64,000 nt of DNA from the NCBI RefSeq assembly GCF_009371985.2, contig NZ_VIKU02000001.1:372001-436000 (forward strand), read 5' to 3'. Positions 3,257 through 19,808 of the stretch are shown one piece after another. A model generated the notes under the pieces. The model was not told the origin of the DNA. It ran no database searches and was given only the letters and a program-made list of their open reading frames with translations. A program made the translations under genes and the position numbers. The DNA is from Pelagihabitans pacificus. Its GTDB lineage: Bacteria > Bacteroidota > Bacteroidia > Flavobacteriales > Flavobacteriaceae. Within the stretch, counting starts at the first letter, position 1. Each line of letters opens with the position of its first letter.

Positions 3257-3265
3257 TAATTAACA

Positions 3266-3952
3266 ATGATAAAAGATAAATTAATCAGTCTCTGTCGCTC
3301 ACTAGAATCGGAAAAACTTGAAGAGGTTTATATTGATATAGGCAATCCTATAAAGGGCTATCAATTTAGTGATTTTGAATACGAATATGCCGTTACAGTC
3401 CATGACAAGGTCAAATCGATTTATACCGTCTTTAATGGCCTTAGAATTAAGTGGCAATTTCATTCAAAGAACATTGAAACAAAATTTGATTACCTGGAAG
3501 GAAACATCCAACTTCTTAATTTTAGGGATATGATGATCGGTTACGACGGTAGAGCATGGAAAAATGAAATTTGGTCTGACAAAACAGAGGAAACCGAATT
3601 AAAGTTTTTTCAACGGCTTAAACCATTTGATTACTTCGGAACTGATACCGTTAGATGCGTATGCTTGGAAATGACTGAGGATCGAATATTAACTCCAGAT
3701 TTATGGCTTTTCAATTTAGGTCATGTTCCATTGAGAATGGAAATTCAAATTGATGAATATATAGGATTGCTCGAAAAAACCAAAGGTATTTGGGGTTGGC
3801 AGTATTTCTATACAAAAATTGATTTATCAGACAAAAAGAATAGTGCAATCAGGGAAAACTGTGAATTCATTATTAATTCATACCCCAAAGTATTTGATGA
3901 TAAATTTGAAAACGAACTGGAGTCTCTTTTTCAAAAGTTAGTATCATACTAA
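3266..3952 (+). CDS. Putative SUKH/SMI1-KNR4-like immunity protein
   Basis: A 228-residue soluble protein with no signal peptide or membrane segment. It starts 9 bp after the toxin-bearing gene and shares its AT-rich composition. The alpha/beta layout, a FNG motif near residue 55, a late acidic-hydrophobic block (PDLWLFNLGH) and an ending containing GWQYFY are reminiscent of SMI1/KNR4 (SUKH) immunity proteins, which bind and neutralise polymorphic toxins, often nucleases. Position directly behind a C-terminal toxin module is the strongest argument. The family assignment comes from pattern only; it could be another immunity fold. Confidence 0.5.
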   Translation: MIKDKLISLCRSLESEKLEEVYIDIGNPIKGYQFSDFEYEYAVTVHDKVKSIYTVFNGLRIKWQFHSKNIETKFDYLEGNIQLLNFRDMMIGYDGRAWKNEIWSDKTEETELKFFQRLKPFDYFGTDTVRCVCLEMTEDRILTPDLWLFNLGHVPLRMEIQIDEYIGLLEKTKGIWGWQYFYTKIDLSDKKNSAIRENCEFIINSYPKVFDDKFENELESLFQKLVSY

Positions 3953-4076
3953 TGTTCATTACTCAAATGATAAACTCAATTTGAAAGTCGAACTTAAGCA
4001 CTGTGAGTTTATAGGATTAATGATAGCACTTAAAAGTATTGTTACCAAACTAAAAAAAGCAATCAATAATAAGTAA
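3953..4076 (+). other. Short open fragment, possible decayed immunity-gene tail
   Basis: Between the candidate immunity gene and the DUF4157 gene lies a roughly 44-codon open frame ending at the TAA at 4074-4076. Its only internal ATG is at 4020, giving 18 codons. The translation ends in a plausible amphipathic, lysine-rich helix (KSIVTKLKKAINNK). It has no good start and may be the tail of a lost second immunity gene or simply AT-rich noise. Confidence 0.2.
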
Positions 4077-4086
4077 TAACGAAACC

Positions 4087-5232
4087 ATGAAAAAAAAAAC
4101 ACCAAAACGTAGACGTAGGGTCAAAAAACAACAGCCCTCCCAAAAGAAACCACAAAACGAGCAGTTCTTTGAAGCGGCCGTTCAGCGCAAATGTGAAAAA
4201 TGTGGGGATGAGGAAAAGAAAGGAGTGCAGAAAAAGTCAGATGGGCAATCGAACGCGAAGGCCAAAAGCTTTTTTGGGCCCTACATGAACAACATTAATG
4301 GCAAAGGAACCGCATTGTCCAAACAAAACCGGGCTTTCTTCGAAGGAAGGATGAACGATAACTTTGGAGCGGTTCGCTTGCACCAGGACCAAGAAGCCTC
4401 CAGTGCCGCCAAGGAAATAGGCGCCAAGGCCTTTACCTGGCAAAACCATATCGTGGTTAACAAACAGTACTTCGAAGAAGGGAGTGTGGAGTCCAAACAA
4501 CTATTGGCCCATGAATTGAAACACGTACAGCAGCAGAAAAACGGGAGGCATATAATCCAAATGATGCCCGAAGAAGATGCTGGGGAGCCCACCAAGGAAG
4601 AAGGTATGCAACAGGCTCCTGTAGAGGATACGGCAGTGATGGAAAAAGAAGCCGAACAGGAAGAGCAGCTGATGATGACCCCGGAAAGCCTGCCCGATTT
4701 TCAAACCTTTGGTACACCCTTCTCCAAAACCGCCTTTGCCAACTCGGTAACCTTCGAAGGCCGTACGGATGCGACTTTTAACGGCGGCATCGGATCGACC
4801 CGTAATCTGACCCGGACCCCATCCGAAGACTGTGTTGGTTGTGCGGAAAACGATTGCTTTCACTATACGGGGCAACTACAAATCAATTATAGCGTCACCA
4901 CCTCCGTGTCGCTACCGGATGTTCCGGAGGGATTGACCGACTGCCAACACGAACGGGTGAGAAACGCCATCGACAATGTTATAGCGCCACACGAACAAGA
5001 CCATGTCACGGCTTTTAACCAATACAATGGCACCGTGACCCTGCCAATTAACTATACGGGCTGTAGCGCCGGAATACAGGAATACGTTCAGGGCCTTCAT
5101 GACGCCGATGCCGCCACAAGGCGCGCGAGTGCCCAAGCCGCAAGTGATGCGTTGGACCCCTTTCATGTTTCGGTCGATTTGGATTGTGAGGATGAACCGG
5201 CTGCTGTCCCCTCCCCGGAGGCACCTGAATAA
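4087..5232 (+). CDS. DUF4157 (eCIS core domain) protein with second C-terminal HExxH domain
   Basis: This 381-residue protein starts with a very basic, lysine/arginine-rich stretch and a CxxC pair (C36, C39). The DUF4157 core spans about residues 60-155: FFEGRMNDNFGAVRLHQD, then the zinc-protease-like HELKH at 142-146. A Glu-rich linker follows. The C-terminal part (about 200-370) has several cysteines and a second HExxH motif, HEQDH at 302-306, in a setting resembling DUF922-type putative proteases. DUF4157 proteins are markers of eCIS loci, where they accompany or load cargo. No signal peptide is seen. Neither protease activity is proven; two HExxH sites in one short protein is unusual. Confidence 0.75.
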   Translation: MKKKTPKRRRRVKKQQPSQKKPQNEQFFEAAVQRKCEKCGDEEKKGVQKKSDGQSNAKAKSFFGPYMNNINGKGTALSKQNRAFFEGRMNDNFGAVRLHQDQEASSAAKEIGAKAFTWQNHIVVNKQYFEEGSVESKQLLAHELKHVQQQKNGRHIIQMMPEEDAGEPTKEEGMQQAPVEDTAVMEKEAEQEEQLMMTPESLPDFQTFGTPFSKTAFANSVTFEGRTDATFNGGIGSTRNLTRTPSEDCVGCAENDCFHYTGQLQINYSVTTSVSLPDVPEGLTDCQHERVRNAIDNVIAPHEQDHVTAFNQYNGTVTLPINYTGCSAGIQEYVQGLHDADAATRRASAQAASDALDPFHVSVDLDCEDEPAAVPSPEAPE

Positions 5233-5250
5233 AAGCGTCAAACCGCTTTT
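5231..5250 (+). terminator. Weak hairpin after the DUF4157 gene
   Basis: Seven-base arms AAAAGCG and CGCTTTT are separated by six bases immediately after the stop codon. The tail is short, so termination is probably partial and the downstream ATPase may be co-transcribed. Confidence 0.35.
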
Positions 5251-5355
5251 GTAAGTCTCGAATATGTAGTATCTTAACTACAAAATCTTCCCCTAAACTC
5301 TGTTCTAATACAGATAAAATGCGTTCCCCCATAATAGTTCAAAAGCTGAAGAGTT

Positions 5356-6717
5356 ATGCATCCCATAGAGCGCACCATGAAAATTGTCGGCAAGGATTCC
5401 GACAATTTTACCCAATCCATAGAGCAGTTCGGTAATCTGATCCTAAATCGTATCACCGCCGATCAAAACCAAAGTCCATTTGTCCTGTCCGATTATGACA
5501 CCTCCAAATTTGGCCTCGATCTTGATAAAATATTGCAATTACAAACGTCTTTTTCTTTTGAGGAGAAATTGATCTTGTTATTGTCAATCATTCCTTATGT
5601 AAAGCCAGGTTTTTTGGAAGAGGTCATGGCAAAGGCCTTGCCCCATGGTGGGGAGTACATCGTATTTGGAGGAATCAAAGGACAGCAGCACCGGGGTATT
5701 TTACCAACTGGGGAAACGGCCCTTTATGTTTTGGCCGGGACCGATATCAAAGAGCGATTACGGTATCAAAAACTCTTTAGTAGTGATGCTTTGTTTGCCA
5801 CCTACGGATTATTACAGGTAGAAGGCGCCCCCCATGGGGAACCGTCCATGAGCGGTCGACTGGTTCCCGATCCCGATTGGTTGGAAAGGATACTGCTCGG
5901 AAAGGAAGCTGCCCCGGCCTATAGCGTAGCGTTTCCGGCGCGAAAGATCACCACCGCCATGGAGTGGGAAGATCTTGTGTTGCATCCACAGACCGCAGAA
6001 AACATCAATGATATCCAACTCTGGGTCGCACATCATCAAAATGTGTTGAAAGATCCTATTTTCGGAAGAAGGATCAAACCGGGATATCGGGTGCTTTTCT
6101 ACGGAAAGGCGGGAACAGGCAAAACCTTGACAGCTTCCCTACTCGGTAAGAAGTTCGGGATACCGGTGTACCGAATCGATCTGTCACAAGTGGTATCGAA
6201 ATACATTGGGGAAACCGAAAAACACATCGAATTGGTATTCAATAGAGCGGAGCGTAAGAATTGGATCCTATTTTTTGATGAGGCGGATGCGCTTTTTGGA
6301 AAACGAACCAACGTGCAAAGCTCCAACGACAAATTTGCCAATCAGGAGGTCTCCTATCTGCTGCAGCGTATTGAAGATTTTCAGGGTCTGTTAATACTGG
6401 CCTCCAACTTCAAAAACAATATTGACGACGCCTTCCTAAGGCGGTTTCACAATGTCATCCATTTTCCATTGCCCGGTGTTAAGGAACGCTTTAAGCTATG
6501 GACACAGAGTACCCCATCGAACATGAAGGCGCATGCCGATATCGATTGGAAAATAATCGCTGAAAAGTACGATATAACGGGAGCCGAAATCGTGAACGTG
6601 ATGTACTATGCCACCTTAAGGGCCTATGCAAGAAAGAAGTATGTCCTGATCAAGGAGGATATTTTGGAGGGAATCAAGAAAGAGCTTAAAAAACAGGATA
6701 AGACCTTTACCTATTGA
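5356..6717 (+). CDS. eCIS-type AAA+ ATPase
   Basis: The 453-residue protein has an N-terminal region of about 190 residues without an obvious motif, then a classical AAA+ module. Walker A GKAGTGKT lies at residues 250-257, Walker B FFDEADALF has D308/E309, a sensor-1 Asn sits at 351 (LILASN), and an FLRRF arginine motif lies at 360-364. This architecture matches the single AAA ATPase conserved in contractile injection loci (Afp15-like), proposed to act in assembly or recycling of the particle. The DUF4157 neighbour upstream fits. The structural eCIS genes would have to lie left of the window. Confidence 0.82.
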   Translation: MHPIERTMKIVGKDSDNFTQSIEQFGNLILNRITADQNQSPFVLSDYDTSKFGLDLDKILQLQTSFSFEEKLILLLSIIPYVKPGFLEEVMAKALPHGGEYIVFGGIKGQQHRGILPTGETALYVLAGTDIKERLRYQKLFSSDALFATYGLLQVEGAPHGEPSMSGRLVPDPDWLERILLGKEAAPAYSVAFPARKITTAMEWEDLVLHPQTAENINDIQLWVAHHQNVLKDPIFGRRIKPGYRVLFYGKAGTGKTLTASLLGKKFGIPVYRIDLSQVVSKYIGETEKHIELVFNRAERKNWILFFDEADALFGKRTNVQSSNDKFANQEVSYLLQRIEDFQGLLILASNFKNNIDDAFLRRFHNVIHFPLPGVKERFKLWTQSTPSNMKAHADIDWKIIAEKYDITGAEIVNVMYYATLRAYARKKYVLIKEDILEGIKKELKKQDKTFTY

Positions 6718-6833
6718 GATAAAAAATTTCGATGGCGGTTCATCATAGGGTAGGAATATTATATAAGAATCCTTAAGGAATTTGTGGTCAACCTTTGATA
6801 GCAAAACAGGTCGAGCTAGAAAAACTAAAGAAC

Positions 6834-7361
6834 ATGAAAGCCAAAACGAGTGAAAATTCACAAAAGGGGAATACCTCCGAACTACTTCAAAAATGGCAAT
6901 ATGCCATTCGTATCTGTCATAAGGCCCATATACGATCAGCCGCGCACATGAACCGGCGGCACCGGGTATTGGGCATTGTGGTGGTTATCCTATCCACCAT
7001 CGTGGGAACCAGTGTTTTTGCAACCCTGGATAGTTCACCCAAAACCTGGGTGAAAATACTTGTGGGGTTCCTTTCGGTAGCCGCCGCCGTTTTCGCGGGT
7101 CTTCAGACTTTTTTAAATTATAGTGAGAAAGAAGAAATGCACAGGGTGGCCTCCCAAAAATATGGGGCATTGCGTCGGGAAATAGAAGAATTTTTGGTCC
7201 TTCCGAAAGGTATGAACGACAATCCTGAGGACTTTCTAATAAATATTCGTTCCAGATGGGATGCCATTGACAATGACAGTCCAAGTCTGTCCCAAAAGCT
7301 ATATGATAAGATTGCAAAGGGTATTAGGACGGAATCGCTTCGAAGGGAGAAAAACAATTAG
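6834..7361 (+). CDS. SLATT-domain two-TM membrane protein
   Basis: A 175-residue protein using the ATG at 6834; an in-frame TTG 39 bases upstream is the alternative. The order is characteristic of SLATT proteins: a helix containing HKAHIRSAAHM, TM1 (about 46-64), a short loop, TM2 (about 72-94), then YSEKEEMHRVASQKYGALRREIEE. SLATT domains are predicted pore-forming or membrane-perturbing effectors linked to nucleotide-signalling (SMODS/SLOG) conflict systems. Here no nucleotidyltransferase or SLOG partner is next to it, so its activator is unclear. It sits between an eCIS ATPase and the MBL/trypsin-CHAT operon. Confidence 0.72.
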   Translation: MKAKTSENSQKGNTSELLQKWQYAIRICHKAHIRSAAHMNRRHRVLGIVVVILSTIVGTSVFATLDSSPKTWVKILVGFLSVAAAVFAGLQTFLNYSEKEEMHRVASQKYGALRREIEEFLVLPKGMNDNPEDFLINIRSRWDAIDNDSPSLSQKLYDKIAKGIRTESLRREKNN

Positions 7362-7651: not shown

Positions 7652-8719
7652 ATGAAAATTAGATTCTTGAAAGCCTTTAAAGGCGATTCCATTCTGATTA
7701 CTGTCAATACGGACATGGGGCCGAGGAACATTCTCGTGGATGGAGGCGAGGGCGCCACCTATAAAAAAGATATAGGGCCGGTGGGAATTCCCGAATATGG
7801 GGAACTGAAGACAATAACCGAGAACTTAAGAAACCAAAAACAGAAAATCGACCTGCTTATCTTAACTCATATTGATGATGATCATATCGGCGGTATCTTG
7901 AAATGGCTTGCAGAAGACGAGGGAGCCCATGAATTGATTCGTGAGATTTGGTTCAATTCGGGCAGAATGATTGCACGCTCCTTGGGAATATTGGAAAACA
8001 AAGACCTGGAAAACAGGATAGATACTGATGAGTCTACCGATACCAGCGTTGCACAAGGGATTAAGTTCGGAAAATACATCAAGGCCCATGGCATCAAATG
8101 GCACGAACAGCCAATTTTACAAGGACAGGAATTAAAGCGATATGGACTCACATTTAAAATCATATCCCCGGAAATCGGACACCTCAAACGGCTATTGAAA
8201 GAATGGAAGAAAAAGGAACCGGACTTGGATACTGCGGCTAAATCACACGACTATGCAATGTCGTTAAGAGACCATGTCAAGAACGATGTGTTTGAAAAGG
8301 ATAGAAGTATACCGAACGCCAGTTCCATAGCTTTCATAATGCAATGGAAAGATAAAAACTTTTTGTTTCTAGCCGATGCGTATTCCTCGGTCGTTGAAGA
8401 TGGTTTGAAGGTATTCACCGCTGAAGAAAAATTAAAGTACGAATTAGTGAAATTGGCCCATCACGGCAGTGCTGGAAATATGAGTGCCGATTTAATTGAT
8501 AAAATCGACTGTCAAAATTTTGTCATCAGTACCAATGGAGACCGACACTATCATCCACATAAGAGGTTGTTGGCACGTTTAATAGATTTAAAACCGAACA
8601 GCAACCTATATTTTAACTATTATAAGAAAGGATCGAAGCCCGAAATATTCTCAAAGTACGATTATCAAGAGTATCCATTCAATGTCTTCGAAATTGAAAA
8701 AGAATTTGAATTTGTATGA
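7652..8719 (+). CDS. ComEC-like metallo-beta-lactamase-fold protein (conflict operon gene 1)
   Basis: A 355-residue MBL-fold hydrolase without signal peptide or membrane segments. The metal motif reads T-H73-I-D75-D-D77-H78, with Asp where most families have the second His, and a later LAHHGS motif (H270/H271) is typical of ComEC/Rec2-like MBL domains. Its stop overlaps the next start in ATGA, so translation is coupled to the trypsin-CHAT gene. Soluble MBL proteins of this type recur in bacterial conflict loci with trypsin-like and CHAT partners. Substrate is unknown; a nuclease or phosphodiesterase role is inferred from the fold. Confidence 0.8.
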   Translation: MKIRFLKAFKGDSILITVNTDMGPRNILVDGGEGATYKKDIGPVGIPEYGELKTITENLRNQKQKIDLLILTHIDDDHIGGILKWLAEDEGAHELIREIWFNSGRMIARSLGILENKDLENRIDTDESTDTSVAQGIKFGKYIKAHGIKWHEQPILQGQELKRYGLTFKIISPEIGHLKRLLKEWKKKEPDLDTAAKSHDYAMSLRDHVKNDVFEKDRSIPNASSIAFIMQWKDKNFLFLADAYSSVVEDGLKVFTAEEKLKYELVKLAHHGSAGNMSADLIDKIDCQNFVISTNGDRHYHPHKRLLARLIDLKPNSNLYFNYYKKGSKPEIFSKYDYQEYPFNVFEIEKEFEFV

Positions 8720-10923
8720 GAACCCCCGACGACATACGAAAATGCGTAGTTTGTCTTAATGACGGCAGTGGAGTACTTTTTCAACCTGAAAATGACCAGA
8801 CCTATATCCTTACCGCAGACCATGTTTTCTACCAAAGAAATCACGGGAATAAAGTATTGCTGCCGAAGGTGAGCATTCGTTATTTTGATGAAATCAAAAA
8901 TCGTTACAAGGAAATTGAATCGGAAATTGAACTTCAAAAAGGTGAAAATTATTTTCCATCAGAGGACTCAGACATCGCCATTTTAGTTATAAAACGTTTA
9001 CCAATTGTAGAAGACTGGATTAGACCGGTCAAAAAGGTGGAGGAAAATAGCGACTGTATTCTTGGGGGAATTCCAGGTCTTAGAAGAAATGCATTTCCCG
9101 ACGATCATACAAAGTGGTATGTGAACCATCAACCTATTGATTTCGATTTGGGTGGTGTAAAGAGGTCGGGGCAAATGCTCGATGCCATAAACAGAAAAAA
9201 CATTACCATTGACGAACTTCGCGGCATGTCGGGAGGAGGTATTTTCCAGCTATCCGGTAGTAAAATCTCACTTCTTGGGATACAAAATCAAGGGCCATTG
9301 GACAATGAGCACCAAGGTCGTTTCCTTTTTACTCCACTGCACGCATTTGAAAAGATAGTGAAACACTATCATAATAAATTACTCCCGATATTCCACAGCG
9401 AAACTCCCAGAGCTACTGTTTCATTTGATATAACAGCCTTGCAAAAAGTTGGTGACATCCAAAAACACGTGGTCGAAATACTAGAGTCGACCGAAAGAGT
9501 GGTGGTCGATTACAATAACGATTTTTCAGTATTTCGGGCCTGTAACGAAGTATTGTACAAAACTTCCTATAAGCAAATCGATATGGAAGAAACGGTCAAC
9601 GCCATCGGTGAGTCCCTGTTTGAGTTGCTTCATTCACAAGAAGGAGAACTAGAGAGAGATCGAATGAAACAATTTCGGCAAGCTTTGACCAAAAGATGGG
9701 ATATTAGGATAGAGTTGGTCAGTAAATATCAACAGGGTAGGTTCAACTATTCGGCTATTCCGTGGGAATTTTTGAGATGTCCCGAAAGCTTGGCCGATGA
9801 CTACGGAAAACCGGGAAACATTGCTAAGTACAACTTAATCGTCAGAAGATTTCGGGATGATACCAGAAAAGAGTTGACGAAGCTCGACGCCAGGGAAACC
9901 CAGCTTAACAGTTTACAAGTTTGGTTTGTCGTCGCCGATGATTCGATGTCGGCCATAGGCAAGAAGCTGGAAGGTTTGGAAACCAAAGAAACCTTGCTTG
10001 CCGTTAAATCTAAAAGCCTAAGAGTTCGTGAAATTATGGACGAAAGGGAATTGCCGCATATTATTCATATCATCGGCGACTTGAACCGTGAAGACAGGGA
10101 AGACATTATTCAATTTGTCGGAAAGCATCCAAATAGATCGAACAATCAAACTTTTGTATTGATTCAACAATCCACTTCGGGGGCAAACGAATATGAAACT
10201 TTTGACTACAACGCCAAATTATTTCTAGAAGCGTGGAGGCGTCCCTTTGCATCGGTAATCTCACTACCCTTCAACCTTGAAATCGATGAAAAGGTGTATG
10301 CAATTTTTAAACATTTCTATACTGATTTAGCGGAAGGAATCAACCTTGGAAAATCGTTCTTACCCCTTTCCAGAAGATTGGGAAACCACAATCCAATCAG
10401 TCGCCCCTTGATATATTTAAATTTTGACTGTGATTTCTCCTTCTCCAAAAAAGTCGAAAGAACTGAACCTGCAATGGGAGGTTCGTTCGGTAAAGTCAAT
10501 GAAGAAACCCCAACCATTGGTATTCAAAAGACCGAGATTCCATCAAAGCCAAAAAAGATAGGAGAGAACACTGCGGCCAATGAGAATGCGTTGCCTCATG
10601 TGGTCGATTTTAAAAAGTTGGGCAAACTGGCCGAACAGCTGGAAGAGTGGGGAAAAAAACCTACCAAGGACGTCTATGAGGATATCCTTGTATCCTATAA
10701 CAATTTCAAGGAAAACAACTTTCCCTGGGAAAACATGATAATTTTTTGCAACCCCTATAAAGATAGTGCGGCCATCACAACGGTAAATGTACTTGGTACC
10801 GATTTGGAACCCATGGCTTATGATATTTTGACCAAATTCTTCGAATTGGGAAACGAAGAAATTGAACAGCTCTTGGATAAATACAAAAAGCAGCGATCTG
10901 ATATGTGGATCTACCCAAAATAA
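8716..10923 (+). CDS. Trypsin-like serine protease fused to degenerate CHAT domain (conflict operon gene 2)
   Basis: A 735-residue intracellular fusion. Residues 10-225 form a trypsin-like protease with an intact triad: His36 (TADHV), Asp86 (SDIAIL) and Ser172 (GMSGGG). Residues about 240-590 resemble a CHAT (caspase-like) domain: the IPWEFL landmark near 348, HIIHII at 448-453 around the usual catalytic His, and an FY..LAEGINLG-like closing helix. Where CHAT proteases carry Cys, this protein reads FVLIQQS (480-486), so the caspase-like site appears dead. A linker and a helical tail of about 100 residues follow. The next gene overlaps by 19 bp if its GTG is used. Likely a sensor/protease pairing; targets unknown. 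Confidence 0.78.
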   Translation: MRTPDDIRKCVVCLNDGSGVLFQPENDQTYILTADHVFYQRNHGNKVLLPKVSIRYFDEIKNRYKEIESEIELQKGENYFPSEDSDIAILVIKRLPIVEDWIRPVKKVEENSDCILGGIPGLRRNAFPDDHTKWYVNHQPIDFDLGGVKRSGQMLDAINRKNITIDELRGMSGGGIFQLSGSKISLLGIQNQGPLDNEHQGRFLFTPLHAFEKIVKHYHNKLLPIFHSETPRATVSFDITALQKVGDIQKHVVEILESTERVVVDYNNDFSVFRACNEVLYKTSYKQIDMEETVNAIGESLFELLHSQEGELERDRMKQFRQALTKRWDIRIELVSKYQQGRFNYSAIPWEFLRCPESLADDYGKPGNIAKYNLIVRRFRDDTRKELTKLDARETQLNSLQVWFVVADDSMSAIGKKLEGLETKETLLAVKSKSLRVREIMDERELPHIIHIIGDLNREDREDIIQFVGKHPNRSNNQTFVLIQQSTSGANEYETFDYNAKLFLEAWRRPFASVISLPFNLEIDEKVYAIFKHFYTDLAEGINLGKSFLPLSRRLGNHNPISRPLIYLNFDCDFSFSKKVERTEPAMGGSFGKVNEETPTIGIQKTEIPSKPKKIGENTAANENALPHVVDFKKLGKLAEQLEEWGKKPTKDVYEDILVSYNNFKENNFPWENMIIFCNPYKDSAAITTVNVLGTDLEPMAYDILTKFFELGNEEIEQLLDKYKKQRSDMWIYPK

Positions 10924-10931
10924 AATTTCAG

Positions 10932-13900
10932 ATGGACCACTTGAGAAGTAAATACGGCCCGGCTAAATCCCTAAGATGGAATTATTTCCAGCTTGCACGA
11001 TCTTACGTACAAAATAATCAGTTCGAAAATGCGATCAAAACTTTTCGGAAAGCCTCGGAACAGCAAGGAAGTGTCCCCTTTGGCTGGGAAATCGCTTATT
11101 CCTTGGGCCAGTGCTACGAAAATCAAAAACGGCCTGTCGAGGCGGTCATGTCTTATATAAAGGGAATTATCAGTATCAAGGGAGTTCAATCTTCACAGCA
11201 AAATCTCTCTATGCTTTTGGATCAGCTAAGCCATGTCATTGAAAACGACCATGCGGGAAAACTCCCTGCCAGTAAGGACAACTTTAAGCAAAAGCGGTTT
11301 ACTGGTTTGGGTAGGGACGAAGAAATGATTTTGGAGCCCCTATTGCATGTTTTTCATGGAAAGGTATTTCTTTCCAACAACGATTTGACCGCCGCGGAAA
11401 AACACTTCAATTCACTATCAAAAGATGCTCCCATCGAATTTCAAATCGAGGCTCTTCATGGATTGGGTGAAATCCACTATAAAAATAAAAATTTCCGACT
11501 TGCCAAAGAAAAACTGGAAGCCGCCATCGCTGCTGATAAAGAAAACCATTTTAAGCCAAAAATTTCCCTTCTCTATATCAGGACATTAATAGCGACGGAA
11601 GAACACCTTTTGGCAAGAAACAAATTAAAGGATTACAGGTTGAAATGGGAGACGGGAGGCGCATCCCCCACATCCGATGAAATTACTCAGATTGCCTCTT
11701 GTTATTTAATGTATAGCCTATGGAACGACGCCCTCTTCTTCGTTCAACAACTCAAAGCGAAGGATACAAGCGAATTCTCATATAGCGTTAAAATTGAAAG
11801 TTATTTGGCCCTTCACAGGTATTCGCTCGCCTTTGAAGAATTGCAGGATGCCACGGAGGCGTATCCATCAAGTCATCACCTTTTATTCCTTAAAATCCAG
11901 GCATACGTCGAAGGTCAGCTTAATATCATAGCAGGAAGTCAATTGTTTCTTGAAAATTACGCTTCGGAAGAAAGTGAAGAAAATATTCAAAAGAGACTTC
12001 AACTAATCAAAAAAAGACGGCCAGAGGATCAAAATGCCCGCTACTTCGTAGCTTTTATTTATGTACTGATGGGCAAAGAAGAAACGGTTTTTGAGCAGTA
12101 TCTGGAGCAGGTTAGAAAAGAGGGAATACTTGATGACGTCGATAGTAATGCTCCTAGTACCTATCCAGAAAAGGCAATCCATGTGCTTGACGGCTATTCC
12201 CTGGAATTCAACGGAAAAAAAGAAGAAGCCGCAAACCAATTTTACGAGGCAGGTAAAAAATGCTATTGGGAAGGAAAATATGAGCATGCCGTCTTTTATA
12301 TTGAGAAGGCCATTGAACTTGACCCTTCCCACAACCCGATGTACTGGCATTTGGCCGATTCCTATAAGCTGTTGAGCACGATTAACGAGCCACCTTACAA
12401 CGATCCCTATTATGTAGGCCTTGCTTATCGCGTTTGGTCTAGCCAACCTCAGGGGTTTGTCATTGAAAAAAAGGAACAGTATTGGGGCTATCTTGTGGGT
12501 AGTAGGATACACGATCTGGGATTCTACTTTGAGGAAACACTATTTCTACAGAATACATGGCTATCAATACTATACGCCGAGCGCGCCATCATTTATGAAA
12601 AAAATAAAGCCACCGTATGGACCGATCTCGGAAAATGTTATAACAACATCGGTTTATATCATAATAGCTTTGAGGCATTGACGAAGGCAATGGAATATGA
12701 CCCCGAGGATATAGTTAATATCGATGAATATACCAAGGTACTTTTAAATTTGTACCGCTTCCAAGAGGCTGAAAAATATATTTCACGCCTTGAGGATAAG
12801 ACAAAATATCCCTACTTGGCATGGAAAGGATTCATAGCATACATAAAGGGTGATTATCACAAAGCATTACACTTCTTTAATGAATATTTGAAAGACACAC
12901 CACTTGACGTGTGGTCGCATGGCATAAAAATGGAATGTTTCTGGTTGCTCCAGGATTTCGGGGAAGCCAAAAATTGTGCCGCTCAAATCTTGGAACTTTC
13001 CAAGAATAAAAATATCCAGCGCCAAGAATATACCTATGCCATGGCCGCCTTTATCACTGGAGAAACAAAAAAGGCCATAGCCATAGCCGCCGATGCCGTT
13101 ACAAAGTCTGGTGATCCCTACTATTTGGATAGTCACCTTTTACTATTCTACTTATACGATAACGAACTATCCAATGCAACGGATCAATTTGAACATCACT
13201 TGCGAGTAGAGAAAAGACCGGAAGCCCTTGAATTGACCATACAAAAATTGGGGCACTTGAAACAGTTTGCGAAAGCTGGTAAGCTACCCCATGAAAAGGA
13301 ATTGGCGGCAATCATCGGAAATACCGAAACCGGCTGGATCAAAAGGCTTCGCGACCAAATAAAAAGCAATGCCCTGGAAACCTACGAGTCGGTCGAGGAG
13401 CTAAAAAATATCTTGGAGCAAAATAAATACCATCCAGGCAGCGTGCAATGGCTCACCATAAAGGCTGGCTTGGCCAGACGGTCGTGGGAAAACGGGGAAT
13501 ATGCACATGCCTCGAAGTACTACCATGAATTGATAGGGTTCATGAAAGATTTTCCCGATGCAAAATTTGCCCTTGAGGAAATTCGGAAAGAAATAATCGA
13601 GGTAACCAAGGAAAGACTCAAAAAATCGGAATACGATACGGTTCTCATGGAACTTAAAGACGGTTTTGTAGAAGGACCGGAAGCAAGCGCACTTCTACTA
13701 TTAGCGTATCTAGGGGTCAATCAACGAAAGCAGGCAAAGGCCCTTCTCATGCTGCATTTGAAGGAATCAAAGCAGCACGATAAAACGTTGGCCGACGATG
13801 GGTTTATAGCATCCCTTTTAGAGAGTATACCCAGCAATCGCTTATTTTGGAAATTAGATGATTTGATGAATGCTTGTCTCCAAGATGTCGACGATCAGGA

Positions 13901-14975
13901 CATCACCCATCTCATCAAGAGCATTCAGGATCTACTAAACACCTATTGGATAAAGCGTCTAGGCGACGGACAAACTTCCAACTACTTCCTCGCCGTAACA
14001 CCGATCGCCATCGAAATTGGGACTGACATGGTCCCGGAGGGTGAAGAATTGGAGTGGCCCGTCTTCAAAGAATTCATACCGAACCTACGGGACGACTTCC
14101 AGCAGCGATACCACGTACAAATCCCTGGGATTCGTATCAGGGAAAATGACAACAACCTTCCGGACGGTACCTACTACATTTTAATTGATGAGATTCCGAT
14201 CGGTTCCGGGACGGTTCGAAAAAATGAGTTTTTTGTACCATCGGCATCGGAGGAGCTTGAGAAACTGGGACTTACTTATAATGAAATCCAATATCCGTTT
14301 GCCGGGGCATGGGTCGCTAGGAGCAACGAATCCTCGCTGAAAGAGCATAATATCATATATTGGGACGATCCCTTTAAATATATCATCGCTCATCTCGACC
14401 TAGCGCTTGCCCAAAGATTGGATTTCTTTTATGATGTGAATTACACCTATGATTATTTGAATGGTTTTGAAGCCTTTGACCCAGACGTAAGAACCCTTGC
14501 TGACGAGATAAAGAGTGATAACCAACTTTTGCTACTATTTGATCAGGTTCTCAGGGGACTATTAAAGGAGCAAGTACCCGCGAACCAGCGTGATGTAATC
14601 ATCCAAAATTTTATGGATACCGATTTACATGTCGACCAGAAGCAACGTATTCAAAAAATAAGATTGAATCTAAAATCAGTTTTGCCCGGAAACCAACCCC
14701 ACCTAAAACGCATCAAACTTCCAAGGTCGGTCGAACAGCAAATTCAGGATGAATTGAAAAAGGACGAGAACAAAACATTTTTGGGAATGGAGCCGGTTGT
14801 ATGTCAAGAAGTGCTTACAGAAATAAGGGAGGTGATAGCCAACCAACCCTTTCGGAAGATTGTTCTAGAAGTGGAGCGGTCGGAATTGAGACCTTATGTC
14901 AGGGAACTGATAAAACTTGAGTTTGCAGACCTCATGGTGATTGCGAAAGAAGAAATATGGAACGAAACGAAATAA
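10932..14975 (+). CDS. TPR solenoid fused to FlhA/SctV-like (FHIPEP) cytosolic domain (conflict operon gene 3)
   Basis: About 1,347 residues from the ATG at 10932; an in-frame GTG at 10905 would overlap the previous gene by 19 bp. Residues 1 to about 1000 are a long TPR/superhelical solenoid with repeats such as a YEHAVFYIEKAIELDP motif. From about residue 1020 the sequence follows the cytosolic domain of FlhA/SctV export-gate proteins: VTPIAIEIG, IRIRENDNNLPDGTYYI, a WxDP-like segment, LRGLLKEQVP and a closing R..VRELIKLEF block. The eight-TM export-gate half is absent. FHIPEP cytosolic domains form nonameric rings in type III export; here a ring or scaffold role coupled to the protease is inferred. 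No secretion genes are nearby. Confidence 0.75.
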   Translation: MDHLRSKYGPAKSLRWNYFQLARSYVQNNQFENAIKTFRKASEQQGSVPFGWEIAYSLGQCYENQKRPVEAVMSYIKGIISIKGVQSSQQNLSMLLDQLSHVIENDHAGKLPASKDNFKQKRFTGLGRDEEMILEPLLHVFHGKVFLSNNDLTAAEKHFNSLSKDAPIEFQIEALHGLGEIHYKNKNFRLAKEKLEAAIAADKENHFKPKISLLYIRTLIATEEHLLARNKLKDYRLKWETGGASPTSDEITQIASCYLMYSLWNDALFFVQQLKAKDTSEFSYSVKIESYLALHRYSLAFEELQDATEAYPSSHHLLFLKIQAYVEGQLNIIAGSQLFLENYASEESEENIQKRLQLIKKRRPEDQNARYFVAFIYVLMGKEETVFEQYLEQVRKEGILDDVDSNAPSTYPEKAIHVLDGYSLEFNGKKEEAANQFYEAGKKCYWEGKYEHAVFYIEKAIELDPSHNPMYWHLADSYKLLSTINEPPYNDPYYVGLAYRVWSSQPQGFVIEKKEQYWGYLVGSRIHDLGFYFEETLFLQNTWLSILYAERAIIYEKNKATVWTDLGKCYNNIGLYHNSFEALTKAMEYDPEDIVNIDEYTKVLLNLYRFQEAEKYISRLEDKTKYPYLAWKGFIAYIKGDYHKALHFFNEYLKDTPLDVWSHGIKMECFWLLQDFGEAKNCAAQILELSKNKNIQRQEYTYAMAAFITGETKKAIAIAADAVTKSGDPYYLDSHLLLFYLYDNELSNATDQFEHHLRVEKRPEALELTIQKLGHLKQFAKAGKLPHEKELAAIIGNTETGWIKRLRDQIKSNALETYESVEELKNILEQNKYHPGSVQWLTIKAGLARRSWENGEYAHASKYYHELIGFMKDFPDAKFALEEIRKEIIEVTKERLKKSEYDTVLMELKDGFVEGPEASALLLLAYLGVNQRKQAKALLMLHLKESKQHDKTLADDGFIASLLESIPSNRLFWKLDDLMNACLQDVDDQDITHLIKSIQDLLNTYWIKRLGDGQTSNYFLAVTPIAIEIGTDMVPEGEELEWPVFKEFIPNLRDDFQQRYHVQIPGIRIRENDNNLPDGTYYILIDEIPIGSGTVRKNEFFVPSASEELEKLGLTYNEIQYPFAGAWVARSNESSLKEHNIIYWDDPFKYIIAHLDLALAQRLDFFYDVNYTYDYLNGFEAFDPDVRTLADEIKSDNQLLLLFDQVLRGLLKEQVPANQRDVIIQNFMDTDLHVDQKQRIQKIRLNLKSVLPGNQPHLKRIKLPRSVEQQIQDELKKDENKTFLGMEPVVCQEVLTEIREVIANQPFRKIVLEVERSELRPYVRELIKLEFADLMVIAKEEIWNETK

Positions 14976-16345
14976 ATTCCCAAATGCAAATGAACCGGGT
15001 TCAGTTAGATACCACACTATTTCGTACTAAAACGGAATTCAACAACTATTGGGATTCGCTGGAACTAACTGACCATGCCCAAAATGCTGGAACTGAAATC
15101 CATTCCAGCATGATGAGCCTCTTTATGGAAATTCAGCGTCTAGGAATTTCGATCACGGATAAGTCAAATAAGCCATTTGTTTCAAGATTGATCAATGAAT
15201 TCTTCGATGGTAAACTGCCGAATCGGGAAATGCTAAGAGAAGCGTTGATTGCCGAATTGAGTTCGGATTACCTATCCATTTTAATCAATAAGGAATATTT
15301 CAGGGCAATTACCTCAGAAGAATGGGCTTTTGATGATGCAGGGAACTTTGGGCTCATGAGAGACGGTCTTTTTTACGAGCTCGGCCTACGATATCCCAAA
15401 TTCAAGCTTCGATTTACCGATGCTTTGGAAAAAGGACTTTATAAAATACAGGTGAACGATTCGTTGACCGAGGCATTTTCCGGAATCGATGCAAACGAGT
15501 GCTTGGTAAACGATACGGTAGAACGTATAAAACTGTTGCGTATAAACGGTACTCCCACGGTGAATCCTGCAAACGGATCACAATGTGCCATAATTGCCAA
15601 GGAAGATGTTGCCATCGCAAAACAGGCCGGACTCTCCACTTGGGACCCTATGGGTTATCTAACACTTTGTTTTAGTAGTGTTCTCAGAAACTACGCTGCC
15701 TGTTTCGTAAATAATAAACTCGTTCATGACGAGCTCGACAGACTCTCCAGCGCATGGCCAAAATTGGTGGAGGTGTTGAAAAACAAATATCCCATTGCAA
15801 TAATTACCAAAACCCTAAGACTTCTTCTTTCCGAAGAAGTATCGATACGAAACCTGCGTTTGATCTGCATGTCGATGTTGGATATGGACTATATCAAGAC
15901 CGATCCCAAAAAATATATCATCCTGGATGACCGACTCCCTGTATTGCCTCCCGTTGCGAAAAATGTACAAATAACACCTCAATTCCTGGCCGAATATGTC
16001 CGAAGTACAATGAAAGACTACCTAACCCATAAATATTCAAGAGGTGGAAATACCTTAGTAGTATACTTATTAGACCCAGCAATTGAGGAAATGGTAGAAA
16101 CGAGTATTACAGAAAACCAACGGTTATCGGTAGCCGATCAAGACAAACTGGTCAAAGCCCTAGAGTTGGAACTTGGAAACCTCTCTCCTACTGCTCAAAA
16201 TCCGGTCCTTTTGACCTACACCGCCATTCGTTCCACCCTTAAGGAGCTCTTGCGGCAACGTTTTCCAAGACTGGCGGTAGTCGCCTACAACGAACTGGCT
16301 CCCACTATAAACATTCAACCGATTGCACGAATTTCTATGAAATAA
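14957..16345 (+). CDS. Stand-alone FHIPEP (FlhA/SctV cytosolic-domain-like) protein (conflict operon gene 4)
   Basis: A 462-residue soluble protein starting 19 bp inside the previous gene. The first 115 residues are helical and unrecognised. The rest matches the FlhA/SctV cytosolic domain in order: GLRYPKFKLRF, NPANGSQCAIIAKEDV, a GLSTWDPMGYL segment, LRLLLSEEVSIRNLRLI near residues 285-301, a VVYLLDPAIEE strand, and NPVLLTYTAIRSTLKELL...FPRLAVVAYNEL at the end. It conserves these landmarks better than the TPR fusion. No membrane segment is present. The two adjacent FHIPEP proteins may co-assemble; that is inference. It ends the operon and faces a convergent pair. Confidence 0.78.
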   Translation: MERNEINSQMQMNRVQLDTTLFRTKTEFNNYWDSLELTDHAQNAGTEIHSSMMSLFMEIQRLGISITDKSNKPFVSRLINEFFDGKLPNREMLREALIAELSSDYLSILINKEYFRAITSEEWAFDDAGNFGLMRDGLFYELGLRYPKFKLRFTDALEKGLYKIQVNDSLTEAFSGIDANECLVNDTVERIKLLRINGTPTVNPANGSQCAIIAKEDVAIAKQAGLSTWDPMGYLTLCFSSVLRNYAACFVNNKLVHDELDRLSSAWPKLVEVLKNKYPIAIITKTLRLLLSEEVSIRNLRLICMSMLDMDYIKTDPKKYIILDDRLPVLPPVAKNVQITPQFLAEYVRSTMKDYLTHKYSRGGNTLVVYLLDPAIEEMVETSITENQRLSVADQDKLVKALELELGNLSPTAQNPVLLTYTAIRSTLKELLRQRFPRLAVVAYNELAPTINIQPIARISMK

Positions 16346-16459: not shown

Positions 16460-17821
16460 TTAATCCTTGATGGTATATTCAACGAATAAAGGATCAACTT
16501 TTAAGCTGCGTGCTTTCCAATTGTTCTTCTTGCGCTGCACCTTGCCCTCATCCATCCGTGCGATGCGACCTTTGGTTTTTTTGTCCAACGCTTTGTACAG
16601 ATTTTTAGCCGGCATTCTCCAAGGATTTTTTTTGGTCAGATTGGGGTCCTTTTTATTGACGGGGATAAAGGCGACCAAATCTTCATGGGTCATGCGATCC
16701 AGGGCTTTTTTCGAGGTAGCGTTATGGCTACCATGATGGCCCACTTTGTAGAACACCGTATTTCTTAAGAGGGTATCCATATCCAACGGATGATCTCCCT
16801 TCCAATCAATGGCGTCCCAAGACCGCCAATTTCCTGCCTGCGCATCACCTACAAATAGCAATACCTTTTTTAACTTCACGAGTTCAAAAGCCAAAACCAG
16901 ACTCGTATTATTGGTATAGGAATTTAGGTGGAGCGCAAATCGTTTGGCAATGCTGAGCCAATCAAGATCAATATTCCGCCAGGATTCTTTATTGTAATCC
17001 TTCCATTGGGCGAGCGTATCCTTCGACCAGTTTTTTTTATTCGAAAGCTTTTCCTTGAATTTATCATTGAATGGAAAATTCGGGTCGGCCCGTTGATCGC
17101 TCAGCGCATTGTTCAATTCATCGATCGAAAATAGGATCGAACTCAAATGCCGGTCATAGGACTCTCCCTTTCTGGGGTTTGTAGACCGTATATCCTTATA
17201 GTTACGGGGTGGCCCGAGCACATGGATTCGTACCAAGTCCTCTGACATATTCGGTACCTTCACAATTTGCCCCGGGCGCAAATATTGAACCGGTCGGGTA
17301 CCGACCTCCTTTAAAAATTGCGTCGCTTTTCCCGTAAAGGAGTGGTCGATTTCGAAACTTCTTTCATCCACTACCTCATCCAAAGCCATCCGTATGGGGG
17401 CCAACTCCTTTCTTCTGTCCGATTTTAATCTTCCCCGAATACTTTGTAGTCGTCGAGTTACCTTATTGTGCTGCTCTCCGATATCGAGGGCCAGGGCATC
17501 GTTTTCATCATCGAGCCAAGATAGGAATACCTGTTCTACCCCGATACTTTCAAAATCTTTTCGCGCATGTTGAAAGCCCGACATATGGTCGTTATGCTGA
17601 TGCGTCGCCACGATTAAATCGATGCCTTTTGGTCCCACTATTTTTCGAATATCCCTTGTTATCTCCTTGAATTTTTTGGAGGAAGCATTTGAATTCCGAA
17701 ACGACCCACAATCTATTAAAACATGACTTTCACTTGTAGTATCATTAAAAGACAAAAGAAAACAATCACCCAGTTCATGTAGGCGATACATGCGAATCTT
17801 GGTGGTCAAAGCATTATTCAT
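16460..17821 (-). CDS. Second metallo-beta-lactamase-fold protein
   Basis: A 453-residue soluble MBL protein with the canonical motif T-H74-x-H76-x-D78-H79, a GDAQAGNW block and VGHHGSHNAT near the C-terminal half, again ComEC/Rec2-like. It differs from the plus-strand MBL protein in length and in having the full HxHxDH set. Its start overlaps the end of the upstream metallopeptidase gene by 8 bp, so the two are translated together. The C-terminal 60 residues are very basic. Substrate unknown. The convergent orientation to the FHIPEP operon, only 114 bp away, suggests one accessory island. Confidence 0.8.
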   Translation of the reverse strand: MNNALTTKIRMYRLHELGDCFLLSFNDTTSESHVLIDCGSFRNSNASSKKFKEITRDIRKIVGPKGIDLIVATHQHNDHMSGFQHARKDFESIGVEQVFLSWLDDENDALALDIGEQHNKVTRRLQSIRGRLKSDRRKELAPIRMALDEVVDERSFEIDHSFTGKATQFLKEVGTRPVQYLRPGQIVKVPNMSEDLVRIHVLGPPRNYKDIRSTNPRKGESYDRHLSSILFSIDELNNALSDQRADPNFPFNDKFKEKLSNKKNWSKDTLAQWKDYNKESWRNIDLDWLSIAKRFALHLNSYTNNTSLVLAFELVKLKKVLLFVGDAQAGNWRSWDAIDWKGDHPLDMDTLLRNTVFYKVGHHGSHNATSKKALDRMTHEDLVAFIPVNKKDPNLTKKNPWRMPAKNLYKALDKKTKGRIARMDEGKVQRKKNNWKARSLKVDPLFVEYTIKD

Positions 17822-19808
17822 GGGCGTGTAGATTTTGTATGCTTAACGGCTGAAAGGCCAAGTCCGAATCCATATAGGAGGCTTGGTTCAAATAAACATT
17901 ATCCATTCCTAATTGATACTCCAGTTGCGCCTTCAAGCGTCTTTGGCTTCCCAGCCTTTTTACGATGGCATAGTTCAACACTGATTTTTCGGAAAGATCA
18001 AAGACCAAGGTGCAACCACCCCTAAACTTAAGACCATCCAACTCATGTCCGTTCTTTTCCACCCGCATCGTCTGCAACAAGGTAACCACCACTTGATCGA
18101 TCCGCATACCCTCCCGACTACTACGATAAACGGGTCTTACATTCAATACCTGTAATTTGAAATCCGGATTAAAGGGAATGGGTTCCCCTTCATACCGGTG
18201 CTCGTGTTTCATTGTGGGCAACAAGCCCAATTTCTCGAGGAAACCGATCCAATCAGGGTTATGCATTTCTTTCATCTGCTCTATCTTTTCCCGATGGCTG
18301 CCTAGTTGGGAATCATAGGCGCTGTAATAATCGGTAAGACTACTTGCAAAGCGATTTTCACCCTTCTTTTGTGGATCTAATCCTTTCGTAATGATCCCAT
18401 GCAAGATGGCATTGATTTCCTTTGTCTTTTCATAAATGTTCTTCCGATCCTTTAAGCCCAACAATTCCCTGATTATTGGTTTCAGATTCTCAATAATGAT
18501 GGATAAGGCGAGCGTATCAAATTCCGAATCGAACATTTCACTGGTGGGGTTCCATCTAAGACTATCTACCGACATCGTGTTTACACGATCTATCTGAAAA
18601 CCCCACTCCCTGAATGCCTCGATCAACGCTACGCGGTACCCTCCATCATCTTCAGGGGCCATTTCGAAATCCGCAGTGATCAGCGCGCGTATATAGTCGC
18701 CAAAAGTAATATCACAGGGAGGGACAAAATCAAGTGCCTGTATGCAAATTTTCAATAAGTTCTGACTGATTTCCATCACCTCCGTCGCCAATCTTTGGAC
18801 GAGATCGGGGTGCAGTCGTCTATCGGGACTTCCGTTCGGATTGGCTATTCGAAAAAGGTCGTTGGTGCGATGGTCATATAACCGAATGAAAGCATCAAAA
18901 ATACATGCTACGAATATAGCACCGCGGTCATGTACCTGCGTAGCGTTGCCCAGTGCGGTTCGGTCGGGCACCCTGCGCTCCCAGCCATCTTCGGACTGAA
19001 TACCAATGGCGCTTCGCAGGGCGGTGTGGCCATAGTCGATCGCTTGTCCGACCTGCGTGGCCAACTCCCCAAATATCGACTCGTTATCCAACTTGCCCTT
19101 TGCAAATGCCAATTGATGCACCACAAGATCGCGATTGTTCAATCGTTCCAATAGTGCAATCGTATCGGCGAAAGCTTCGTGAAACGCCCCTACGTCCGCA
19201 TTGGTATTTTCGATAAAATGGGGATGGATACTATCAAGAATTGCATGGCACATTTCGTGGGCAATGATATCCGGCGACAAGCAGGTAAATACCGTGCCAC
19301 CAGGAACATTAATGCCTTGCAATAGGTCTTTCGCTTTGAAATAACCGAACAGAATAGATTTCTTGTCCGGGGTATAGTAGGCGTTGGGCTCCAACAACGC
19401 ATGGGGGTACAATTTTAAATGAGGGATGTATTCTTCGTTGTACTTCCCCGTATCGTCTTCGGATAATCTGGGACGCCATATAATTTTTCTCCCTAACGCA
19501 TCCTCAAAAACCTCGATTATCCTCATTGCAATCGTGTACACAAATTGCTGATGAAACTGCGGATTTCCTTCGCTTGGGCTTAGGCCATTTTGTGAAAGTA
19601 CTTCCACATGGTTGATATCTACCGGCCTGTACCAACATTGGTTTGCCGGGTCGAAATCGATGACGGCCACATAGTCTCCCTTGGGACCGGGCTCCACACC
19701 ATCTTCCCAGCGTACGCGGTACACCTTTTCGTTCACGGTATAGGTCGATAGCAGCGTAGAAAAACTCGGGTCGAGAGTGTAACCTTTAAGATATCTATAG
19801 GTAGGCAT
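17814..19808 (-). CDS. Gluzincin-type zinc metallopeptidase
   Basis: A 664-residue cytoplasmic-looking protein. The peptidase core has HEMCH at 184-188 and, about 20 residues later, NADVGAFHEAFADTIAL with the third-ligand Glu211. This is the HExxH...E arrangement of gluzincins (thermolysin/M4-like clan). N-terminal beta-rich and C-terminal helical regions of unknown function flank it. There is no signal peptide or propeptide, which argues against an exported thermolysin. It is the first gene of a two-gene unit with the second MBL protein. A role in processing a conflict-system partner is speculation. Confidence 0.72.
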   Translation of the reverse strand: MPTYRYLKGYTLDPSFSTLLSTYTVNEKVYRVRWEDGVEPGPKGDYVAVIDFDPANQCWYRPVDINHVEVLSQNGLSPSEGNPQFHQQFVYTIAMRIIEVFEDALGRKIIWRPRLSEDDTGKYNEEYIPHLKLYPHALLEPNAYYTPDKKSILFGYFKAKDLLQGINVPGGTVFTCLSPDIIAHEMCHAILDSIHPHFIENTNADVGAFHEAFADTIALLERLNNRDLVVHQLAFAKGKLDNESIFGELATQVGQAIDYGHTALRSAIGIQSEDGWERRVPDRTALGNATQVHDRGAIFVACIFDAFIRLYDHRTNDLFRIANPNGSPDRRLHPDLVQRLATEVMEISQNLLKICIQALDFVPPCDITFGDYIRALITADFEMAPEDDGGYRVALIEAFREWGFQIDRVNTMSVDSLRWNPTSEMFDSEFDTLALSIIIENLKPIIRELLGLKDRKNIYEKTKEINAILHGIITKGLDPQKKGENRFASSLTDYYSAYDSQLGSHREKIEQMKEMHNPDWIGFLEKLGLLPTMKHEHRYEGEPIPFNPDFKLQVLNVRPVYRSSREGMRIDQVVVTLLQTMRVEKNGHELDGLKFRGGCTLVFDLSEKSVLNYAIVKRLGSQRRLKAQLEYQLGMDNVYLNQASYMDSDLAFQPLSIQNLHAHE

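Follow-up and report, generated by a model that had tools for sequence, protein, structure and literature searches.

A four-gene operon with two soluble FHIPEP proteins

The window analysed here is a stretch of 64,000 nucleotides from Pelagihabitans pacificus (Flavobacteriaceae; contig NZ_VIKU02000001.1, positions 372,001 to 436,000), whose genome measures 4.56 Mb with a completeness of 100. It contains a tight operon of four genes that lie head to tail on the same strand and encode a metallo-beta-lactamase (MBL)-fold hydrolase, a trypsin-like protease protein and two proteins with an FHIPEP domain, the cytosolic domain of the FlhA/SctV export gates (Table 1). With the called starts, the genes overlap by 4, 19 and 19 nt. 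The third open reading frame (ORF), called from a GTG at 10905, has an in-frame ATG at 10932, and a start there would turn the second overlap into an 8-nt gap. The GC content of the operon (0.418, against 0.449 for the window) hints weakly at acquisition. No Bacteroidota-type promoter consensus was seen near the operon, and no hairpin signal was found 3' of it.

Table 1. Positions of the operon genes, their domains and the genes upstream of them, in window coordinates
Feature	Position	Strand	Basis
MBL-fold hydrolase, 355 aa, predicted gated pro-nuclease	7652..8719	+	PADLOC, NCBIfam, conserved residues
Trypsin-like protease domain, residues 1-225 of the 735-aa protein (gene 8716-10923)	8716..9390	+	PF13365 below cut-off, PADLOC, hhalign, motifs
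C-terminal 510 residues of the protease protein, no recognised fold, not recognisably LmuA	9391..10923	+	no matches
TPR-FHIPEP protein, 1356 aa, line A; FHIPEP domain 13977-14969	10905..14975	+	Pfam TPR families and PF00771
FHIPEP protein, 462 aa, line B; FHIPEP domain 15242-16309	14957..16345	+	PF00771
SLATT protein with two transmembrane segments, candidate effector beside the operon, not certain to belong to the system	6795..7361	+	NF033632
eCIS_core protein	4087-5232		
AAA ATPase	5356-6717		

A preliminary description of this DNA had claimed that two adjacent proteins are built on the export-gate cytosolic domain, and profile searches bear this out for both ORFs at the positions it gave. 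Residues 1025-1355 of the 1356-aa protein match positions 324-656 of the 657 positions of PF00771 (FHIPEP; E 3e-29, 102.5 bits), and residues 96-451 of the 462-aa protein match positions 323-656 (E 7.3e-42, 144.1 bits), with a cut-off of 29.1 bits. The motifs quoted in that description are all present, RIREN in the larger protein (the quotation was one residue short) and the others in the smaller one. Pfam families of tetratricopeptide repeats (TPR) occupy the N-terminal part of the larger protein. The NCBIfam models for FlhA and SctV match both proteins as well, with scores far under cut-offs set for full-length proteins, which is what half proteins should give. The comparison with solved structures, suggested earlier as a check, returned SctV and FlhA chains for both, with the cytosolic domain of SctV (YscV/LcrD) as the best relative in each case (E 8.6e-33 for the 462-aa protein, E 1.2e-17 for the C-terminal end of the TPR protein). 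A rhizobial SctV is 24% identical to the 462-aa protein over 364 positions. Judged by sequence, we consider the assignment of the FHIPEP domains firm.

Both proteins lack the membrane half, said earlier to comprise eight transmembrane segments: a scan for 19-residue hydrophobic segments finds none above threshold in the protease, TPR or 462-aa proteins and six in a control SctV, and the coverage of PF00771 begins only at positions 323-324. The host genome contains no further FHIPEP match, so that its total is these two. The assertion that no other type III gene is present holds for FHIPEP, and no export-apparatus neighbours occur among the scanned genes (eCIS, AAA, SLATT, MBL and protease), other type III genes not having been searched with models genome-wide. 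The NCBIfam model SctY gives a weak match within the TPR protein (residues 927-989; E 0.003, far below cut-off), which is no more than a lead. Together, the PF00771 matches, the missing membrane half and the absence of further FHIPEP in the genome speak for the proposed repurposing of a cytosolic export-gate domain in a genome where no secretion gate was detected. PADLOC models match neither of the two window proteins, nor any whole FHIPEP ORF of their relatives; the one scanned piece of a split relative gave weak, unrelated matches only.

The MBL-protease pair and its relatives

The MBL protein matches the PADLOC models LmuA (E 1.2e-112) and Avs1a (E 3.4e-45), and the NCBIfam model for Avs1a with E 3.2e-59, under that model's cut-off. 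Its relatives in genome contigs reach 50% identity (best 80 of 364 relatives). Residues H73, D75, D77, H78, D242, H270 and H271, which we take to be metal ligands, are conserved in 88 or 89 of the 89 aligned relatives. The stretch between the metal motifs aligns across six MBL proteins, and no isoleucine could be assigned as the cut site of a gating loop.

The protease domain falls below the cut-offs of the Pfam trypsin models that it matches (E 2.5e-4 with PF13365). Residues 3-238 of the protein match the PADLOC LmuA model (E 2.9e-35), and the motifs TADH at 33, DSDIAIL at 84 and GMSGGG at 170 presumably contribute the catalytic triad. When the protein was aligned with 72 proteins encoded directly after MBL genes, hhalign gave a probability of 99.9; its C-terminal 510 residues alone scored 0.0 against these 72 LmuA-type proteins. 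The same C-terminal part has a best Pfam match of E 0.31, well below cut-off, and no tblastn match in 93 MBL loci. By eye this part suggested a decayed CHAT domain, an idea that found no support: neither a caspase match (the protease family of the caspase-nuclease system Canu) nor a CHAT match turned up in these residues. The protease protein has no plasmid match.

An MBL gene upstream of a protein with an N-terminally fused trypsin-like protease domain is the arrangement of a nuclease-protease effector pair. In Hachiman and AVAST, the MBL enzyme is a pro-nuclease that is cut and thereby activated by a trypsin-like protease, and the pair also occurs in Lamassu and in DRT (PMC12799240, in part). 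The sequence comparisons indicate that the first two genes of the operon are homologous to this known pair of gated pro-nuclease and activating protease, and closest to the Lamassu effectors.

To place the pair, we drew on a set of 93 MBL loci (the best 80 of the 364 relatives, 5 viral contigs, 6 plasmid loci and 2 loci from our own genome set, one of them that of the window genome). The protease domain was found by tblastn in 63 of the 93, and an aligned MBL protein was obtained from 89. A 400-480-aa ORF directly follows the MBL gene in 72 of these 89, and 59 show an intact four-gene layout of 350, 440, 180 and 1040 aa, which we have taken for Lamassu; in the remaining 30 the locus ends too early or the layout differs. 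Annotations on four plasmids name the genes of this layout MBL, ABC-three component protein, middle component and AAA family ATPase. Eight loci (L105, L136, L144, L151, L154, L156, L157 and L158) have ORF sizes after the MBL gene unlike the four-gene layout and may represent AVAST, Hachiman, DRT or new combinations. The Runella slithyformis plasmid pRUNSL03 carries three MBL genes and a serine protease near a multiubiquitin/ThiF cluster. FHIPEP occurs in 5 of 35 genomes of MBL loci, each time as a full-length match (Paraburkholderia, Paenibacillus, Spirochaetales, Clostridium and Stutzerimonas).

The operon thus shares with Hachiman, AVAST, Lamassu and DRT a homologous MBL-protease pair in the same gene order and with the same N-terminal fusion. 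It departs from them in its system-specific part, for which no Pfam match reaches the cut-off, and in the other two genes, a FHIPEP pair where those systems have their core; the main text of PMC12799240 contains neither FHIPEP nor FlhA. Lamassu of the MBL-protease type provides the closest MBL relatives, yet its SMC-type ATPase (LmuB), its middle component and the LmuA part were not recognised among the scanned window proteins. Unlike AVAST and other STAND systems, the four operon proteins contain no STAND NTPase, nor any other NTPase domain in a Pfam scan, whereas one of the related loci described below does contain a STAND protein. No match to HamA or to the HamB helicase of Hachiman was obtained for the operon proteins with Pfam or PADLOC.

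Two FHIPEP lines, their relatives and the surroundings of the operon

The preliminary description called the two FHIPEP proteins paralogues, which is correct, with the addition that they represent two separate lines, A (the TPR-FHIPEP protein) and B (the 462-aa protein). Over 413 aligned positions, the 462-aa protein shares 38% identity (E 4e-75) with a 597-aa protein from genome G1211 (L176:11548-13341), and matches its own operon partner with E 0.004-0.005 only. The line A protein finds its best match within the compared set in the control SctV (3e-13); its line A relatives are a protein split over ORFs at the same G1211 locus (4e-12 and 1e-8) and a protein from genome G1157 (4e-8). In a tree of 355 columns, from which the split protein was left out, the line A proteins of the window and of G1157 group with 97% support, and the line B proteins of the window and of G1211 with 100%. 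Forcing A and B into joint pairs inside the window genome and G1157 is rejected by the approximately unbiased (AU) test (p = 0.000857). This speaks against a recent duplication at either locus, and both lines look old. The AU test does not reject a grouping with SctV (0.61) or with FlhA (0.62), nor a line B that includes the second G1157 protein (0.40).

A search of gene neighbourhoods, as proposed earlier, found the FHIPEP pair again in G1157 and G1211, each time with other partners. In G1157 (L175), the line A protein (1469 aa) carries two hydrophobic segments near its N-terminus, besides a weak TPR match (E 0.003) and FHIPEP (6.1e-18), and its gene overlaps that of a second, 459-aa FHIPEP protein (6.2e-12). 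On contig 13 of G1211 (L176), genes for a SIR2-TIR and an nSTAND1-leucine-rich repeat (LRR) protein precede the FHIPEP pair, which consists of an LRR-FHIPEP protein divided between two ORFs and the 597-aa protein (2.3e-33); such genes are reminiscent of bacterial NLR-like STAND systems, with their TIR or SIR2 effectors and LRR or TPR sensors. Contig 104 of the same genome (L177:2490-7208) has in a row on one strand a TIR protein of 605 aa, an ORF of 310 aa and, as the only FHIPEP copy there, a protein of 551 aa (1.1e-23); these may be fragments of a single TIR-NTPase-FHIPEP gene. Queries with the window's SLATT, MBL and protease proteins gave no tblastn match in any of the three loci.

Among genomes of the window genome's class, PF00771 was found in 3 of 295 (its own, one FlhA-type fragment and one weak match), and in its family in 1 of 249, its own. 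The order of a Saprospiraceae genome gave 1 of 218, a weak match below cut-off that contains a stop. In the order of a Rudanella genome, 3 of 213 matched, two above cut-off (G1157 and G1211), and the families of these two returned the same genomes again (1/8 and 1/3); a model built from the soluble proteins likewise recovered the same two in 228 genomes of that order. A phylum search with the 462-aa protein matched 86 of 395 genomes, and besides the protein's own gene these matches lie in open frames of 679-785 aa, as expected of FlhA. In the class of a Paraburkholderia genome, 53 of 103 have PF00771, nearly all spanning positions 1-656. We read a strong match in G402 to profile positions 257-502 as an ordinary FlhA-type fragment; FHIPEP fragments were also noticed in G1456 and G1389.

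Single-protein scans of genome and viral contigs with the 462-aa protein were unproductive. No soluble FHIPEP was detected in viral contigs with FHIPEP alignments, or in phage records with the 597-aa relative as query. The plasmid matches are export-gate genes (SctV, LcrD and FlhA) among the annotated matches listed, and the line A protein of G1157 has no plasmid match.

A type III or flagellar locus just outside the window had been named as a finding that would undo the earlier claim. What lies there is a cluster of an extracellular contractile injection system (eCIS), without any type III or flagellar family seen. The window begins within this cluster, whose sheath, two gp19-type tube proteins, CIS_tube, spike, gp25 and tape measure are encoded upstream, followed by the eCIS_core protein and the AAA ATPase of Table 1 (G000:C1:352001-372000 and window positions 20-6717); a 1750-aa ORF that reaches into the window resembles, by eye, another eCIS_core protein. 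Between this cluster and the operon, 290 bp before the MBL gene, is the SLATT_4 protein (NF033632, E 3.3e-38, over cut-off), which could be a separate or an associated effector. Downstream and convergent to the FHIPEP operon, a second MBL gene (16460-17821; 453 aa, PADLOC LmuA 5.1e-16) overlaps the gene (17814-19808) of a protein of 664 aa that has an HEMCH motif and matches no Pfam family, both on the minus strand; they are perhaps another nuclease with a metalloprotease partner. Further away (G000:C1:458000-476000), a 459-aa MBL protein is divergent from a 574-aa ORF that looks trypsin-like, with hydrophobic segments, by eye, and further protease-like ORFs are nearby.

A possible immune role and its alternatives

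The reading that we favour, and that we hold to be somewhat probable, is that the four genes at 7652-16345 form one intracellular immune operon with a core of two soluble FHIPEP proteins and interchangeable effectors, in which clustering of the protease releases the nuclease. The two independent effector contexts make an immune role as such probable, and a role of the FHIPEP pair as scaffold or sensor, as suggested in the preliminary description, is the likeliest. Phage defence and the formation of a ring we infer. The TPR array of A, perhaps also the N-terminal part of B, would sense an infection signal. A and B would then oligomerise in a ring-like manner by way of their FHIPEP domains, like the cytosolic domains of SctV, which form octamers, nonamers and decamers in crystals (PMC9629515, in part). 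The C-terminal part of the protease protein would dock on this assembly and bring protease domains together, the protease would cut the gating loops of the MBL enzyme, and the latter would degrade DNA, so that the infection or the cell is stopped. In the related loci, this core would trigger other outputs, a TIR/SIR2-STAND module or a membrane module.

Some steps of this model have parallels. The Hachiman protease is activated by oligomerisation through its fused part, and becomes toxic when fused to a dimerising zipper (PMC12799240, in part). A ring-making core that holds TPR arms could supply the oligomerisation that such a protease needs. A TPR chaperone docks in the cleft between SD2 and SD4 of the YscV ring (PMC9163089, in part), which provides a structural precedent for a TPR-FHIPEP fusion. 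The window copies span the whole cytosolic domain of the export gate (profile positions 323-656), while they differ from FlhA and SctV in lacking the transmembrane half, in the TPR fusion of one copy and in forming two diverged soluble lines. The capture of a cell-machine domain into an effector-bearing operon resembles modular conflict systems, a class of bacterial systems that acquires modules of cellular machines, typically in inactive form (PMC7159879, in part).

More tentatively, and with more doubt than confidence, we would extend the model to a general immune hub with swappable effectors: A and B would form a hetero-oligomeric ring derived from the type III export gate, a bacterial counterpart of the resistosome without, or downstream of, a STAND NTPase, and a platform that once sorted chaperones would now cluster proteases, TIR/SIR2 or membrane effectors when its TPR or LRR parts sense an infection.

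Several observations weigh against the favoured reading. The function is derived from gene neighbourhood, and 1747 genome look-ups with an FHIPEP query (repeats counted) brought up soluble FHIPEP at no more than four loci in three genomes. An hmmsearch found no FHIPEP among 1787 ORFs of the 93 MBL loci, with a model that recovers, as positive control, the two window proteins, a SctV and six FHIPEP ORFs of relatives; the combination of MBL, protease and FHIPEP is therefore a single case. Beside the G1157 pair, no separate effector gene was recognised, and line A of L176 as well as L177 are broken into several ORFs, by either assembly error or decay. In the tree, the second G1157 protein stands beside SctV (70% support), and a common origin of all soluble copies is not rejected (AU p 0.15), nor is a single origin required. 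AlphaFold gave no usable model, with a mean predicted local distance difference test score (pLDDT) of 33.7 for residues 226-620 of the protease protein and of 36.7 for the 462-aa protein from a two-sequence alignment, the latter not used.

Among the alternatives, the FHIPEP proteins could imitate an export gate as decoy or guard, so that an invader protein or a delivered effector that targets or uses type III gates or the TPR chaperones of such gates binds them and fires the protease-nuclease pair; they would then be bait and not a ring scaffold. The inactive modules typical of conflict systems and the alignment that the 462-aa protein still gives with the rhizobial SctV are in line with this. 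However, the host has no FlhA or SctV of its own that was detected and could be imitated, and the retention of two diverged lines side by side is more what one expects of a two-part machine than of a bait, so that we regard a decoy as unlikely, if worth keeping in mind. A regulated proteolysis of some cellular process, without any immune role, could draw on the fact that rarity is no direct evidence of defence and on the missing separate effector gene in G1157. As TIR, SIR2, STAND-LRR and the MBL-trypsin pair found at these loci are all of kinds that occur in defence systems, we consider this decidedly unlikely.

The proximity of the eCIS cluster, with its eCIS_core protein and AAA ATPase shortly before the operon, raises the idea that the FHIPEP pair serves to sort or load what the contractile injection particle carries, the MBL and protease proteins being such cargo or else maturation enzymes. 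Since eight eCIS proteins have no tblastn match in 49 kb around the other FHIPEP loci, and the MBL-protease pair has its relatives in loci of a defence type, such an accessory function seems very improbable. That the genes are left over from a lost flagellum or type III secretion system is scarcely credible: the domain does belong to the export-gate family, but two intact copies, one of them fused to TPR, are found in an operon with other enzymes, an intact pair recurs in other genomes, and within the scope of the searches given above the genome holds no further FHIPEP.

The effector part of the operon proposed here as an immune system is thus of a known kind, and its FHIPEP core could not be matched to any known defence system. 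That no system of this kind had been described, as the preliminary description held, is in line with searches of open-licence papers, in which none of those listed sets FHIPEP in a defence context: the main texts of PMC7159879 and PMC8195603 contain neither "flha" nor "flagell", and the bacterial FHIPEP mention in PMC9019756 (in part) is the flhA gene in an expression table. If the proposal is true, the ring domain of the type III export gate, which in the literature consulted is met only in flagella and injectisomes, would have a second life as an immune hub, and a new core would join the systems that recruit the nuclease-protease pair. Soluble FHIPEP proteins would offer a membrane-free setting in which to study FHIPEP ring assembly and TPR docking, and pairs of them would serve as a search handle for more immune loci.

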